Source: Bacillota bacterium
GTDB taxonomy: Bacteria; Bacillota; Clostridia; Lachnospirales; Lachnospiraceae
Reading direction: 5' to 3'
Length of the DNA: 50,028 nucleotides
NCBI GenBank assembly: GCA_029224465.1
Contig: JAQXUQ010000034.1
Location: 1-50,028 of the forward strand
In this document: piece by piece, positions 4,950 to 24,242 of the stretch
Layout: the number at the start of each line of letters is the position of its first letter
How positions within the stretch are numbered: position 1 is the first letter of the stretch
Position numbers and translations under genes: made by a program
Notes under the pieces: generated by a model
Told to the model about the DNA's origin: nothing
Seen by the model: the letters and a program-made list of their open reading frames with translations, nothing else
Databases searched by the model: none

Positions 4950-4976
4950 TTGTCTCCGGGGCTGCGTTTGTAAAAA

Positions 4977-4992
4977 TGTTTCACGTGAAACA
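4977..4992. promoter_or_regulatory. parS: parS centromere site, perfect
   Basis: Exact 16-bp TGTTTCACGTGAAACA in the parA-rsmG gap. This is the canonical ParB/Spo0J target, next to the parB gene that encodes its binder. Confidence 0.95.
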
Positions 4993-5017
4993 TTTTGCCG
5001 GTTTTCTGACTTAGAAA

Positions 5018-5033
5018 TGTTTCACGTGAAACA
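5018..5033. promoter_or_regulatory. parS: parS centromere site, perfect
   Basis: Second exact TGTTTCACGTGAAACA, 41 bases (about four helical turns) centre to centre from the first, so both would lie on the same face of the DNA. Confidence 0.95.
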
Positions 5034-5050
5034 TTTCTCGCACATAATGA

Positions 5051-5095: not shown

Positions 5096-5845
5096 TTATA
5101 CATTTTCCAATCCCAATGGCTGTTTGGAAGGCGTACCGGCTTTTCTGGGATATTTAAGCGGAGTCGGCTTGATCTTCTGAATTATCAGCAGCGTTCTCCC
5201 GTAATCCGTACCCGGCAGCCGGAATTCACGGCTTTGCTTCAGTTTTCCGCCCAATATCCGGATTGCTGTCTTTCCGCTCTTCAGCTCTTCCTCCGCTTTT
5301 TCCGATTTGTACGCGGTAAATATACCGCCGGTTCTTACAAAAGGGAGATCATACTCGCAAAGTGTTGCGAGGTTCGCGACAGCTCTCGAAACTGCCATGT
5401 CATACTTCTCACGATGATTCTTGTCACGGGAAAGCTCTTCCGCCCTCGCGTGAATTGTAACCACATTGGAAACTCCGGTTTTCTGAATTGTATCATCCAG
5501 AAAACGGATTCGTTTATTCAAAGAATCCATCAGCGTCACCTGTAATTCCGGAAATGCGATTGCAAGTACAAGGCCGGGAAAACCCGCTCCGGTCCCAATA
5601 TCGATGATCTTTCTGTATCTGCCGATCTCCGTCCTGTCCATGACTTCAAGTATGGAAAGGCTGTCCAGAAAATGTTTCACATAGACATCCTCTTCTTCCG
5701 TAATGGCAGTCAGATTCATGATCTTGTTCCATTCTATGAGGTTTTCAAAGAAAATGCGGAGCTGACGAAGCTGCTCTTCTTCCAGACTGACAGGATGAGC
5801 CAGTCCGGATAGTCCTTCGTTCAGAAGCTGTTCTGCTTTTGTCAT
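5096..5845 (-). CDS. rsmG: 16S rRNA (guanine-N7) methyltransferase RsmG
   Basis: SAM-dependent enzyme that methylates G527 of 16S rRNA in the 530 loop; loss gives low-level streptomycin resistance in other bacteria. 249 residues, close to the usual 235-240 with a short C-terminal extension (GTPSKQPLGLENV). The Rossmann SAM motif is IDIGTGAGFPGLVLAI, followed by VTLMDSLNKRIRFL and AVSRAVANLATL, all hallmarks of GidB. The ATG is at 5845. It follows mnmG by 75 bases, a gap that contains part of a parS-centred palindrome. Confidence 0.96.
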   Translation of the reverse strand: MTKAEQLLNEGLSGLAHPVSLEEEQLRQLRIFFENLIEWNKIMNLTAITEEEDVYVKHFLDSLSILEVMDRTEIGRYRKIIDIGTGAGFPGLVLAIAFPELQVTLMDSLNKRIRFLDDTIQKTGVSNVVTIHARAEELSRDKNHREKYDMAVSRAVANLATLCEYDLPFVRTGGIFTAYKSEKAEEELKSGKTAIRILGGKLKQSREFRLPGTDYGRTLLIIQKIKPTPLKYPRKAGTPSKQPLGLENV

Positions 5846-5879
5846 TGTAAGTAACCTGCCTCAAAATAAATTGCTTTTA

Positions 5880-5923
5880 TAAGTCATGAGGAATGTTTCA
5901 CGTGAAACATTCCTCATGACTTA
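5880..5923. repeat. parS: 44-bp perfect palindrome centred on a parS site
   Basis: Positions 5880-5923 are a perfect inverted repeat with no central spacer. Its middle 16 bases (5894-5909) are an exact parS, TGTTTCACGTGAAACA. The outer arms (AAGTCATGAGGAA and its complement) are not part of the parS consensus. The mnmG stop codon (5921-5923) is the last triplet of the palindrome. In RNA either strand could fold into a long stem. The sequence supports ParB binding; whether the extra arms serve DNA binding, cruciform formation or mRNA-end structure is unknown. Confidence 0.9.
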
Positions 5924-7852
5924 CTCTATTTCATACTTTTCAAGATATACAAGAAGAACCGATATATCCGCCGGCGTTACACCCGACATTCTTGATGCCT
6001 GCCCGATCGATGACGGGCGGAGCTGCTTCAGTTTCTGTCTGGCTTCCAGCCGCAGACTCAGCACTTTATCGTAGTCAATATTCTTCGGTATTTTCTTGTT
6101 TTCCAGTTTGTTGAACTGCTCGACTTGTTTTTTCTGACGTTCAATATAGCCTTCGTACTTGATATTGATTTCTACCTGCTCCGTAACTTCATCCGGAAGC
6201 CTGGGCCTCATCGGATCAAGACCGACCATATTTTTATAGTTAATCTCCGGACGGCACAGAAGATCCGCCAGTGAGATGCCTGTCCGGATGGCGCTTGAAC
6301 CAATGCTCTGCAGATATTCCTGATTCACGCCGGCCGCACCGATTCTGGTATTCTTCAGTCGCAGGATTTCCGCGTTAATTGCTTCCTGTTTCCATACGAC
6401 ATGGTCATATTGTTCTTTTGAGATCAGACCGACGCGGTATCCGTACTTGCGAAGGCGCAGATCCGCATTGTCCTGCCGGAGGAGAAGTCTGTACTCCGCG
6501 CGGGAAGTCATCATACGGTAGGGTTCCCGGTTGTCTTTGCTGACAAGGTCATCAATCAGAACGCCGATATAGCTTTCCGAACGCTTTAAAACCAGCGGCT
6601 CCTCTCCTTTGATTTCCATGGCGGCGTTAATACCGGCAATCAGTCCCTGTGCGGCAGCTTCTTCATATCCGCTGCTGCCGTTGAATTGTCCGGCGCAAAA
6701 CAGTCCTTGCACCGCCTTTGTCTCCAGCGTCTGTTTCAGAGCGTTTGCGTTGATGCAGTCATACTCAATCGCGTAAGCGTTGCGGACAATGCAGCAGTTT
6801 TCAAGCCCCGGTACCGTTCTGTACATCTTCTGCTGCACATCATCCGGCATGGAAGAAGACATTCCGTCGATATACATCTCATTGGTGTATCTTCCTTCAG
6901 GTTCAATAAAGACCTGATGCCTTGTCTTTTCGCTGAATTTAATCACCTTGTCTTCGATTGAAGGACAATAACGCGGTCCGGTGCCTTCAATGATACCGGC
7001 ATAAATCGGAGAACGGTCTATGTTTTCTCGGATGATCTCATGGGTCTGTTCATTCGTATAGGTAAGATAACACGGCACCTGCTCAATCTGCACTTCTTCC
7101 TCTTTTGTAGAATAGGAAAACGGAACGACGTGCGGATCACCGTACTGTGCTGTCATTTTGGAAAAATCAATGGAACGTTTGTCAATTCTTGCGGGTGTTC
7201 CTGTTTTGAAGCGTCTTGTATGAATTCCAAGAGTCTCGAGCGCGTCTTTCAGATATGTCGAGCGCTGCATGCCGCCGGGGCCGGTCTCCGTAATGGCTTC
7301 TCCCACAAGGCACCGCGCGTTCAGGTAGGTACCGGTACAGATTATGACAGCCTTGCAATGGTAGACCGTACCGGTGTTCAGACGGACGCCGGTAATCTTC
7401 TTTAAGGACTTGCCGTCCGCATCTTCCATCTCCTCCGTGCACAGGTCAACAACCTCGCCCATCCGGATTTCCAGATTTTCCTGATTCTCCAGCGTATGGC
7501 GCATCTGTCTGCTGTACTCGGCTTTATCCGCCTGTGTCCGCAGAGAATGCACCGCCGGACCTTTGGAAACATTCAGCATCTTGGACTGGATGAAGGTTTT
7601 ATCGATATTTTTAGCCATTTCGCCGCCGAGCGCGTCGATTTCCCTGACAAGGTGTCCTTTGGAAGAGCCACCAATATGCGGATTACAGGGCATCATCGCG
7701 ATGCTGTCGGTATTCATCGTGAAAATCACCGTTTGAAGGCCTAGTCTTGCGGCCGCAAGCGCGGCTTCGCAGCCGGCATGGCCTGCGCCGATGACACAGA
7801 CATCCGCCTGCAGCTGATAAGAATTATTATTAGTATAAATCGTATTGCTCAT
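5921..7852 (-). CDS. mnmG: tRNA uridine-5-carboxymethylaminomethyl modification enzyme MnmG
   Basis: FAD protein that, with MnmE, installs (carboxymethyl)aminomethyl groups at wobble U34 of tRNAs reading split codon boxes. 643 residues, standard length. The N-terminal dinucleotide-binding motif GAGHAGCE is at 22-29, the GIDA signatures [20 protein letters not shown] and the [19 protein letters not shown] region are intact, and the helical C-terminal tRNA-binding domain ends in [13 protein letters not shown]. It lies 15 bases downstream of mnmE and belongs to the mnmE-mnmG-rsmG unit. Confidence 0.98.
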
Positions 7853-16259: not shown

Positions 16260-19410
<3,151 letters not shown>

Positions 19411-19534
19411 TGTCTCCAGGCAACATACGAAGTATTGTTGCATGAAGATTAATGTCTCCATATAGCACACGCAGTGCTGCTATATGAAGACGCTTGTCTT
19501 CAAACAGTAACACTTCGTGTACTGTTTGGAGACA
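19411..19534 (+). repeat. Three tandem 40-nt stem-loops between gyrB and gyrA
   Basis: Units at 19411-19450, 19453-19492 and 19495-19534, each 40 bases with 2-base spacers (period exactly 42). Each begins TGTCT(C/T)CA and ends with its near complement (TGAAGATT, TGAAGACG, TGGAGACA), giving an 8-bp basal helix with wobble and compensatory changes. Each has a different 24-base interior that again folds: 6-7 bp, a single bulged base, 3-4 bp, and a triloop (GAA, GCA, TTC). The first unit starts at the base after the gyrB stop. The third ends 20 bases before gyrA, leaving its SD (CAGGAG) free. Shared architecture with different sequence implies selection for RNA structure. Function is unknown. Confidence 0.85.
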
Positions 19535-19554
19535 TATACTCAGGAGTTTAATGA

Positions 19555-22092
19555 ATGGAAGACAACACTTTTGACAGAATTCATGATGTCGACCTGAACA
19601 AAACCATGCAGAAGTCGTACATCGATTACGCGATGAGTGTTATCGCCTCGCGTGCCCTGCCGGATGTCCGGGACGGTCTGAAGCCCGTACAGAGAAGAAT
19701 TCTCTGGGCGATGAGCGAACTAGGCAATACACCTGACAAGCCGCATCGTAAGTGCGCGCGTATCGTCGGTGATACGATGGGTAAATACCATCCGCACGGC
19801 GACAGTTCCATTTACGGTGCTTTGGTTTATATGGCGCAGAACTGGAACATGCGCTACTGTCTGGTAGACGGACACGGCAACTTCGGCTCGGTCGACGGCG
19901 ACGGTGCGGCTGCCATGCGTTATACCGAAGCCAGAATGACAAGGATCGCGACGGAGCTTCTGGCGGATATCAATAAAGATACCGTGGATTTTGTCCCGAA
20001 CTTTGATGAAACCGAAAAAGAGCCTTCGGTACTGCCTTCCCGTTTTCCCAATCTTCTGGTCAACGGCACGACCGGTATCGCGGTCGGCATGGCAACGAAT
20101 ATTCCTCCGCATAATCTGCGGGAAGTCATAGATGCCTGCACGCTGATGATCGATAACCGGATTCGCGAAAACAGAGATACCACGATCGATGAAATCATGA
20201 CGGCCATTAAGGCTCCGGATTTTCCGACCGGCGGCATCATCATGGGAATGAACGGCGTCCGGGAAGCGTACACAACCGGAAAAGGAAAGATTGTTGTCCG
20301 CGCCGTAACCAGCATTGAGCCTCTGCCGAACGGCAAGAGCCAGATTATCGTTACACAGCTGCCGTACCTTGTAAACAAGGCAAACCTGATCAAATACATT
20401 GCCGATCTCGCGAAGAACAAAAAGATTGACGGCATTGTCGATGTCAACGATGAGTCCGACCGCGAAGGCATGCGCATCCGGATCGAGCTGCGGCATGACG
20501 CGAATCCGACCATTGTTCTGAATCAGCTGTTTAAGCATACGCAGATGCAGGACACATACGGCTGCATCATGCTTTCCCTTGTAAATGGGGAACCTAAAGT
20601 ATTAAATCTTCTCGAGATGCTGCAGTGCTACATGAAGCATCAGGAAGATGTCGTAACCAGAAGAACGCAGTTTGATTTAAAGAAAGCGCAGGAGCGGGAC
20701 CATATCCTGCAGGGTCTGCTCATCGCGATCGACAATATCGACGAAGTCGTTCATATCATCCGTTCGGCGCCGAATGTCACCGAAGCCAAGGCAAAACTGA
20801 TGGAACGGTTCGGTCTGGACGAGGTGCAGGCGCAGGCAATTGTCGATATGCGGCTGCGGGCTCTGACAGGTCTCGAAAGAGATAAAATCGAGGCTGAGCA
20901 TCAGGAGCTTTTGAAGACAATCGCGCGGCTCAAGGCAATTCTTGCGGACCGTAATCTCCTGCTTGGCGTTATCCGTGATGAAATGCAGGTTATCGCGCAG
21001 AAGTACGGCGACGAGCGCAAAACGCAGATCGACTATCACGCGGATCTGTCCGAGTTCGAAATTGAAGATCTGATCGAAAACGAAAACTGCGTCATCACAA
21101 GAACCAATCTCGGCTACATCAAGAGAATGACAGCCGACGAGTTCAAGGCGCAGAACCGCGGCGGCCGCGGCATCCGCGGACTGCAGACGATCGAAAATGA
21201 CTATATCGAAGACCTTCTGATGACCAGAGTGAAGGACACGATTCTGTTTTTCACGAACAAAGGCCGGGTTTACAAGATGAAGGCCTACCGGATTCCCGAA
21301 GCGTCGAGAACGTCAAGAGGTACCGCAATTGTCAATCTTCTGCAGCTTGATCCGGAAGAAAAGATCTCCGCGCTGATTCCGGTCAGTGAGTACGATGAGA
21401 ATAAGGATCTGTTTTTCGTTACAAGGCAGGGTATCGTCAAGAAGACAAGCAACGCGGACTTCGCGAATATCCGTAAGACAGGTATCATCGCCATCGATCT
21501 TCGCGACAATGACGAGCTGATCGAGGTAAAACAGACCACAAAGGACGACGACATCATTATTGTTACGAGAAAGGGCATGGCGATCCGTTTCCGCGAAGAC
21601 GAGGTCAGAAATACCGGCCGTTCTTCGATGGGCGTTGTCGGTATCCGTCTGCAGGAGGGCGATGAAGTCATCGGCATGCAGCTCTCGAGTCAGGGCGATT
21701 CTGTTTTGATCGTTTCGGAGAAAGGTATCGGAAAGAGAACCGAGTTCGACAAGTTCAAGATTCAGCACAGAGGCGGCCGCGGCGTCAAGTGTTACAATAT
21801 CAAGCCAAAGACCGGCGAAGTCGTCGGCGTGAAGGCAGTGAACGACGATCATGAAATCATGATGATCACCTCCGAGGGCATCATCATTCAGATCCGTATG
21901 AGCGAAGTTTCGATCCGCGGGCGCGATACGAGCGGCGTCAAGCTGATCGACCTAAAAGACGGCGTAAAGGTTGTCGCGATTGCGAAGGTCCGTGACGCTG
22001 TGGAGGACGAAACGCAGGGCAATGCGGACAGCACTTCGGAAGACCAAACGCAGGGTGAAGCGGATGACGCTTCGCAGAACGGACAGGAATAA
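19555..22092 (+). CDS. gyrA: DNA gyrase subunit A
   Basis: DNA-cleaving subunit of gyrase. 845 residues. Catalytic Tyr is Y123 in RYTEARM. The quinolone-resistance region reads HPHGDSSIYG (79-88): Ser at the E. coli Ser83 position (S84), but Gly at the Asp87 position (G88). The C-terminal beta-pinwheel has the GyrA box QNRGGRG, which defines gyrase rather than topoisomerase IV, and ends in an acidic tail with a repeated DxxxEDxTQG pattern. The start at 19555 follows AGGAG at eight bases; the ATG at 19551 is out of frame. Confidence 0.98.
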   Translation: MEDNTFDRIHDVDLNKTMQKSYIDYAMSVIASRALPDVRDGLKPVQRRILWAMSELGNTPDKPHRKCARIVGDTMGKYHPHGDSSIYGALVYMAQNWNMRYCLVDGHGNFGSVDGDGAAAMRYTEARMTRIATELLADINKDTVDFVPNFDETEKEPSVLPSRFPNLLVNGTTGIAVGMATNIPPHNLREVIDACTLMIDNRIRENRDTTIDEIMTAIKAPDFPTGGIIMGMNGVREAYTTGKGKIVVRAVTSIEPLPNGKSQIIVTQLPYLVNKANLIKYIADLAKNKKIDGIVDVNDESDREGMRIRIELRHDANPTIVLNQLFKHTQMQDTYGCIMLSLVNGEPKVLNLLEMLQCYMKHQEDVVTRRTQFDLKKAQERDHILQGLLIAIDNIDEVVHIIRSAPNVTEAKAKLMERFGLDEVQAQAIVDMRLRALTGLERDKIEAEHQELLKTIARLKAILADRNLLLGVIRDEMQVIAQKYGDERKTQIDYHADLSEFEIEDLIENENCVITRTNLGYIKRMTADEFKAQNRGGRGIRGLQTIENDYIEDLLMTRVKDTILFFTNKGRVYKMKAYRIPEASRTSRGTAIVNLLQLDPEEKISALIPVSEYDENKDLFFVTRQGIVKKTSNADFANIRKTGIIAIDLRDNDELIEVKQTTKDDDIIIVTRKGMAIRFREDEVRNTGRSSMGVVGIRLQEGDEVIGMQLSSQGDSVLIVSEKGIGKRTEFDKFKIQHRGGRGVKCYNIKPKTGEVVGVKAVNDDHEIMMITSEGIIIQIRMSEVSIRGRDTSGVKLIDLKDGVKVVAIAKVRDAVEDETQGNADSTSEDQTQGEADDASQNGQE

Positions 22093-24201: not shown

Positions 24202-24242
24202 ATCAACGGGCCGGAACATCATAAGAGTTCCGGCCCGTTGAT
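24202..24242. terminator. Convergent hairpin between the LysR gene and dacA
   Basis: A perfect 16-bp inverted repeat (24202-24217 with 24227-24242) around a 9-base loop. It sits exactly between two convergent genes and includes the first base of the dacA stop triplet. Neither side has a T tract. It probably acts as a bidirectional terminator or mRNA-end stabiliser. Confidence 0.6.

Follow-up and report, generated by a model that had tools for sequence, protein, structure and literature searches.

A REP-like palindromic repeat array between gyrB and gyrA, probably a lineage-specific insertion, in a Lachnospiraceae genome

The BIME-2 elements of Escherichia coli are clusters of REP-type palindromes that lie, in both orientations, downstream of genes. 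In one survey (PMC3733652), REPs are described as carrying a GTAG or a CGTC tag and as lying for the most part 3' of ORFs, frequently no more than 20 bp from a stop codon which the GTAG end itself often supplies. The tagged REPs are described there mostly in proteobacterial groups; the same survey reports families with few units, families with no tag, and bulged families which may have escaped detection. The GTAG REPs, and the REPINs with their RAYT enzyme (TnpAREP), are small imperfect hairpins with a basal stem, a 1-nt bulge, an upper stem and a short loop (PMC3733652, PMC6006769, PMC8266576). They are intergenic at ORF 3' ends, have a foot that can provide a TAG stop, and occur in clusters and in inverted pairs able to form larger hairpins (PMC3733652). 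Members of the class also have the tag 0-2 nt 5' of the hairpin, a high copy number and a cognate RAYT (Y1_Tnp) gene, often with the repeat on its flanks. A long-hairpin rule is given in PMC6006769: a basal stem of 7-20, a bulge of 1-3, an upper stem of 1-10, a loop of 2-5 and a stem GC of at least 50%. The CGTC-tagged REPs have an unpaired tag, reported to vary to TGTC, a stem of 8-9 bp and a loop of 4-5, and they have no associated transposase (PMC3733652). Finally, the E. coli TnpAREP requires the bulge of the single-stranded REP plus a preceding conserved motif, according to PMC8266576.

Here, we examine a hairpin array that lies between the gyrase genes of a member of the Lachnospiraceae (genome G000; 96% complete, 4.4% contamination), within a window that is the whole stretch of DNA analysed, 50,028 nucleotides in length. 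Downstream of an ORF that we take to be recF-like, gyrB (17377..19410, plus strand, 677 aa; PF00204 and PF00986) is followed by gyrA (19555..22092, plus strand, 845 aa; PF00521 and PF03989). The gap between them is 144 nt, or 20 nt once the array is subtracted. The array (19410..19535, no strand being assigned to the whole) has inverted arms that permit larger folds, and it spans, exactly as originally predicted, from the gyrB stop (TAA, 19408-19410), which abuts it, to 20 nt short of the gyrA start at 19555. The probable ribosome-binding site of gyrA, an AGGAG at 19542..19546 (plus strand) assigned by inspection, is outside the array and unpaired in the predicted MFE structure.

Unit 1 (19411..19450, better-pairing strand minus) is directly 3' of the gyrB stop and is composed of a basal stem, a 1-nt bulge, an upper stem and a triloop. 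Unit 2 (19453..19492, better-pairing strand minus) is its direct repeat at a 42-nt offset, and unit 3 (19495..19534, better-pairing strand plus) is inverted with respect to both, with 18 pairs, a bulged A and the triloop TTC. The original prediction of three units with a 42-nt period was right in its coordinates and register, as it was in giving each unit a single bulge and the triloops GAA, GCA and TTC; it was wrong in making the three a same-direction tandem, as unit 3 is inverted. The 8-bp basal helix that it proposed falls short of the full 8 bp in units 1 and 2 on the gyrBA mRNA strand, where a C·A mismatch interrupts it; the opposite strand has T·G at this place. Its statement that the interiors share little sequence has to be abandoned: when the units are put in a common orientation they are identical at 28-32 of 40 positions overall and at 13-16 of the 24 interior positions, and the interiors are therefore related. 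On the better-folding strand all follow the plan GTCTTCA - variable 6 - bulged A - ..CTnCG.. - variable 6 - TGGAGAC, and the family consensus is an imperfect hairpin of 40 nt, in which 13 bp form the basal stem and 4 bp the upper one, with a single bulged A and a triloop. The pattern TGTCTYCA-gap-TGRAGA has four matches in the window versus 0.08 expected, with unit 3 counted on both strands. A covariance model, R2, was built from the seven units of this genome, the three of the window and four on contig C12; the window units, which thus belong to its training set, score 58.3 bits (unit 1, 19410-19449), 55.5 bits (unit 2, 19452-19491) and 59.6 bits (unit 3, 19496-19535). The window also has palindromes of other sorts. 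Three perfect ones (4973-4996, 5013-5038 and 5880-5923, the third extended to 44 nt) are centred on TGTTTCACGTGAAACA, presumably the parS (ParB-binding) consensus, and a 41-nt imperfect, terminator-like palindrome is located between convergent ORFs at 24202-24242.

The array region folds far better than its composition would predict (MFE -65.6 versus -35.5 kcal/mol in dinucleotide shuffles; z = -7.8, 0/200 shuffles). The original claim that all the units fold is correct for the region and weaker for unit 1 taken singly, which 13% of all 42-nt stretches in the window equal or better; units 2 and 3 are among the best 0.5% and 0.05% of these, respectively. Runs of three consecutive 42-nt stretches, each at -11 kcal/mol or lower, are not rare in the window (302 starts on the plus strand and 144 on the minus strand, many of them adjacent), so that foldability alone is little proof, and the case for the array rests on the repeat and its family. 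The MFE fold predicted for the mRNA strand is one long hairpin (-62.3 kcal/mol) with unit 1 paired to unit 3 and unit 2 at its apex, which is about 9 kcal/mol more stable than three separate hairpins (-53.5 kcal/mol summed); the fold predicted for the minus strand joins units 2 and 3 and leaves unit 1 as a hairpin of its own. Such a long mRNA fold could stall nucleases or attract RNase III. The array might then be a selected RNA element of the gyrBA mRNA, whose hairpins or unit 1-unit 3 duplex block exonucleases or form an RNase III site, with the result that the gyrB and gyrA messages are processed and expressed unequally. The predicted advantage of the long fold and the accessibility of the gyrA ribosome site within it are in keeping with this explanation, as is the position of an array with no terminator-like site between two genes on the same strand, only 144 nt apart. 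The placement of the hairpins directly after stop codons would also be expected of intrinsic transcription terminators or attenuators; however, a terminator scan of both strands found neither a site inside the array nor a T-tract, and at two other arrays of the family (C12 and C10, below) inspection reveals a separate strong hairpin followed by T residues further downstream. We consider it extremely improbable that the units are themselves terminators.

Inspection of the gyrB-gyrA gap in relatives had been proposed as a check. Thirty loci of the genus were parsed (the best 30 of 61 genomes, the window's own included), with gaps of 10 to 454 nt. None of the 29 congener loci among these (own excluded) has an R2 match in its gap, which is shorter than 40 nt in 12 of them; weak matches of 11-12 bits in L101 and L109 are outside the gap. 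The eight loci that come next after the window by GyrA score (L097-L104) have gaps of 60, 24, 12, 12, 25, 16, 10 and 36 nt, seven of which, at 10-36 nt, resemble the 20 nt of the window gap without its array. From this residual gap and the lack of a match in the 29 congener gaps, the window array is most simply an insertion in one lineage. The gyrA loci of 80 named relatives (662 kb), in 65 of which the gap was parsed and 15 of which were dropped as unparsable, contain no R2 match at E <= 1, and the gyrA gene of the sister species (G029) is missing from its 87% complete assembly. Among the relatives examined, then, there is no orthologous gap with such units; a second observation that had been named in advance as damaging to a local role, many scattered copies elsewhere, is borne out only weakly, the copies being few. 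The suggestions that the array sets gyrA:gyrB stoichiometry or senses supercoiling at this locus are left unsupported by the 0/29 result.

The gap is not otherwise featureless in the genus. Strongly structured inserts of other kinds, none with an R2 match, are found in 7/29 congener gaps (z < -3, 60 shuffles each; L105, L107, L111, L112, L121, L122 and L124), an observation that can be counted in favour of an RNA element. The gaps of L117 (G052) and L124 (G026) contain the GGGACGGTTC core that is also found in the inverted repeats on either side of the RAYT-like gene of G001, the L124 gap being strongly structured (z -5.3) and that of L117 not (z -1.2). A dispersal search with the hairpin-rich L112 gap in G011, G015 and G000 found it only in its own place, plus a 31-nt piece at G015:C42, which is that genome's own gap; thus, not every insert of this kind is a dispersed repeat. 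The gyrB-gyrA gap of this genus is a place where structured elements of different kinds settle. A further reading is that of a DNA supercoiling device, in which the palindromes would form cruciforms or be bound by gyrase, as is reported for BIME-2, and thereby tune the gyrase genes. Cleavage of the E. coli BIME-2 by gyrase is reported, and the inverted symmetry of the array is strong. Nonetheless, the array is not conserved at gyrBA and the genes that precede the remaining copies encode a DUF6056 protein and a HAD-type hydrolase, and we believe that such a device is very unlikely.

These other copies support the interpretation of the array as a mobile repeat. A search of G000 with R2, in which 150 of 352 candidates were scored, gave seven strong units at two unrelated loci (three in the window, four on C12), all of them training units, together with two reverse-strand shadows and four weak matches (one with E 0.004, three with E > 3). 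The C12 array (472-649 of the contig) has four units and directly adjoins the stop codon of a gene matched by DUF6056, with no spacer. Among 62 genomes of the genus, three have a match at E <= 0.001: G000, G029, which is about 89-92% identical to G000 around C12, and G038. The covariance-model search proposed at the outset thus places the family in these two genomes at three loci, plus a doubtful match in G038 (28.6 bits), which to the eye is a lone hairpin with a different core and was left uncounted. A match on G000:C31 (L163:5834-5879; 24.1 bits, E 0.004) was also left uncounted, since it is part of a longer repeat. In a search of 397 genomes across the bacterial family, only G000 has matches at 1e-5, under stricter filters and with 16 candidates scored per listed genome, so that weak copies may escape. 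The unit pattern has 13 matches in G000, of which four are in the window array (unit 3 twice), one is in the C12 array and eight are elsewhere; these last have the feet only, and as their listed interiors look unrelated they were rejected as copies. A viral or plasmid origin finds no support: one unit pattern has no exact match in viral_contigs, and blastn at E <= 1 gives nothing in phages or plasmids. At the Rfam gathering score the window contains only a tRNA and the loci L160-L162 contain nothing, with five sub-threshold matches to eukaryotic miRNAs or snoRNAs.

In the sister species, the orthologue of the C12 array (on C10) has three units after the same stop codon, versus four in G000; these are outside the training set, score 58.0, 53.6 and 49.3 bits and are nearly identical to one another. 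Between the stop-proximal units of C12 and C10 there is a paired stem change from CG to TA. A further G029 array, on C27, separates a gene for a HAD-type hydrolase from the gene that comes next. Its two units diverge more: one scores 29.1 bits, and the other (C27b) was positioned by eye beside a partial match (18.8 bits). In G000 the orthologous site is without the array: two flanking matches (90-91% identity) leave query positions 1000-1122 (123 bases) unmatched, with six G000 bases between them. There the HAD ORF extends nine residues beyond DRIN (EVIKNDLSE), so far as to overlap the gene that follows; the G029 ORF has DRLN and then a TAG stop, and the hairpin foot opens with the G of that TAG. 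This sharing of the G of a TAG stop with the foot is seen at C12 and C10 as well as at C27. We infer that the difference is an insertion in G029; as the HAD gene was not found beside the neighboring gene in the other 14 of the 16 loci fetched, a deletion in G000 would be a possible alternative. Every array, of two to four units, lies directly at a stop codon; in the window the distance from it is 0 nt. The genome has a second, longer repeat family, with copies of 74-222 nt bearing TGCAATA/TATTGCA motifs, at L163 (C31) 5534-7072 and L162 (C12) 267-421. The start of contig C12 (L162, 1-135) has no Rfam match at the gathering score; to us it resembles the 5' end of a group II intron immediately behind a terminator hairpin.

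The available units (12, from four arrays at three loci) support a genuine covariation of the stem. Standard pairs occupy 87% of the cells, as compared with 28-57% when the partners are slid by one to three columns, and two-sided changes are present at 9 of the 17 pairs. The covariation score, which is not a probability since copies within one array are related, is 0.425 versus 0.237 in shuffles, with 0/500 shuffles as high; counting further pair types (15) gave no excess over shuffles (471/500). Four units (C12a, C12b, C10b and C10c) carry an extra base near the foot that puts them out of register and lowers the paired percentage at the foot pairs. Amid these changing pairs two irregularities are fixed: the bulged A is invariant in 12/12 units, and a T·G pair is equally constant (12/12), with some uncertainty of register there in the same four units. 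In 11 of the 12, the T·G strand runs antisense to the gene beside it (2/3 in the window, 4/4 at C12, 3/3 at C10 and 2/2 at C27), and the mRNA strand has the poorer C·A version in these 11. This asymmetry suggests that what is recognised is the DNA rather than the mRNA. The original prediction had taken compensatory changes in the basal stem to mean that the structure is selected. The covariation is real, but it spans copies at unrelated loci and the better-pairing strands are mostly antisense, and it therefore does not show selection on the gyrBA mRNA. With the array unconserved in the congener gaps, the same repeat also present after unrelated genes and C·A on the mRNA strand of nearly every unit, a selected RNA element of the gyrBA mRNA appears to us improbable.

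Compensatory changes could also arise by mutation alone. A non-mobile palindrome might be made and homogenised by template switching during replication, together with tandem slippage, and would then acquire such changes with no selection; template switching can create and repair stems (PMC8794818). The near-identity of the C10 units is a sign of local homogenisation. Against this mechanism, one consensus is shared by three unrelated loci, and in none of the 12 units has the bulged A or the T·G been corrected, as would be expected of template-switch repair. An enzyme that reads one folded strand should retain the bulge and the wobble, while template-switch repair alone should lose them, and we judge the non-mobile palindrome an unlikely source of the family.

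The interpretation as a mobile repeat can now be set against the REPs. The consensus has the geometry of the long-hairpin rule (basal stem 13, bulge 1, upper stem 4, loop 3), with mismatches in some units, such as unit 1, so that not all are fully paired. The position, within 20 nt of an ORF 3' end and with a foot that may give the TAG, agrees too. No GTAG or GTGG tag is present in the last six flanking bases of any of the 12 units on either strand; the units nearest the stop in C12, C10 and C27 do show a CTAG or TTAG. The stem GC of the window units (0.44, 0.47 and 0.44) is below the 50% rule, and it reaches 0.50 or more in 5 of the 10 units measured (C12d, C12c, C12b, C27a and C27b), two 41-nt units being left out. 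From the GTAG REPs the family thus differs in its lack of a tag, its few copies (seven units at two G000 loci) and the low GC of the window stems, and no Y1_Tnp gene was found in G000 or G029. With the CGTC-tagged REPs (PMC3733652) it shares the lack of an associated transposase, and 9/12 units begin with GTC, preceded by T in eight and by C in one; here, however, the GTC pairs with GAC inside a stem of 17 pairs plus a bulge, and the loop has three bases. BIME-2 is similar in its both-orientation clusters of palindromes after genes and different in copy number and tag. Closer at hand, a congener (G001:C166, locus L148) has, at 430-2263, a RAYT-like ORF (251 aa, 1401-2156) amid three inverted pairs of a hairpin with the core GGGGACGGTTCTCT, a REPIN-like layout. 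These repeats of the same genus are also inverted hairpin pairs, but they have a different core and flank a RAYT-like gene; R2 matches them weakly (20.7 bits) through a similar outer arm, a level at which homology is not established. By analogy, our element may work like a REP, since its geometry and position fit, and is best called REP-like, given that tag, copy number, RAYT and window GC do not. Among the papers listed in the literature searched, which mostly excluded subscription journals, none treats a gyrB-gyrA hairpin element or this repeat family. The earlier statement that no element of such form is known at this locus holds as regards Rfam (at the gathering score) and those papers; the general kind, small palindromes between genes that abut a stop codon, is well described (PMC3733652).

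We conclude that the array is probably a lineage-specific insertion of a REP-like palindromic repeat and not a conserved gyrase regulator. The hairpin array itself is real, its first description being partly confirmed; of the interpretations offered with it, which as a whole are partly supported, the mobile hairpin repeat is the one favoured by the copies at other loci, the filled and empty orthologous site and the absence of a match in the gaps of relatives. To these observations are added the orthologous array of the sister species and the strand-specific irregularities that remain fixed amid covarying stem pairs. It looks as if the hairpins are copies of a rare repeat that arrived, apparently recently, in one lineage of gut bacteria. 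The repeat may have spread non-autonomously, its folded single strand of DNA being recognised by the strand-specific bulge and wobble. The mobilising enzyme would be HUH/Y1-like, or of another hairpin-recognising type, and now absent from the genome or not found in it: a RAYT-type enzyme since lost, one acting from outside, or some other enzyme. No Y1_Tnp gene was detected in G000 or G029, in assemblies of the completeness given above; such a gene is present in 44/62 genomes of the genus, IS200-type and RAYT-like both counted, and the G001 locus provides an example of a RAYT-like gene flanked by inverted hairpin repeats in the same genus. The repeat would be placed at stop codons and its units then multiplied locally in tandem; no clear target duplication is seen at the arrays. 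In the gyrBA transcript the array would be at most a passive stable structure after gyrB. Against the mobile repeat count the very low copy number, the tag missing from all 12 units, the lack of a clear target duplication, a Y1_Tnp gene found in neither genome, the possible deletion at the C27 site, the gyrA gene missing from the G029 assembly, the undispersed L112 insert and the fact that template switching could also give compensatory changes. A more ambitious proposal, which we put forward as a long shot, is that this is an orphan strand-asymmetric hairpin element, mobile now or recently in Lachnospiraceae with no Y1/RAYT enzyme involved, that some enzyme recognising single-stranded DNA hairpins moves it exactly to stop codons, and that the gyrB-gyrA gap is a recurrent landing site in the genus for unrelated hairpin elements that change the GyrA:GyrB output.

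The case shows that tandem stem-loops in a core operon, even strong ones that truly covary, can owe their presence to a recently inserted repeat and need not be a regulator of the riboswitch kind, and covariation across copies is not to be taken as selection at one locus. The family is a small, clean REP-like case, with a filled and an empty site and no RAYT found, outside the proteobacterial groups in which tagged REPs are mostly described (PMC3733652). As such, it bears on how palindromic repeats that lack a RAYT spread.
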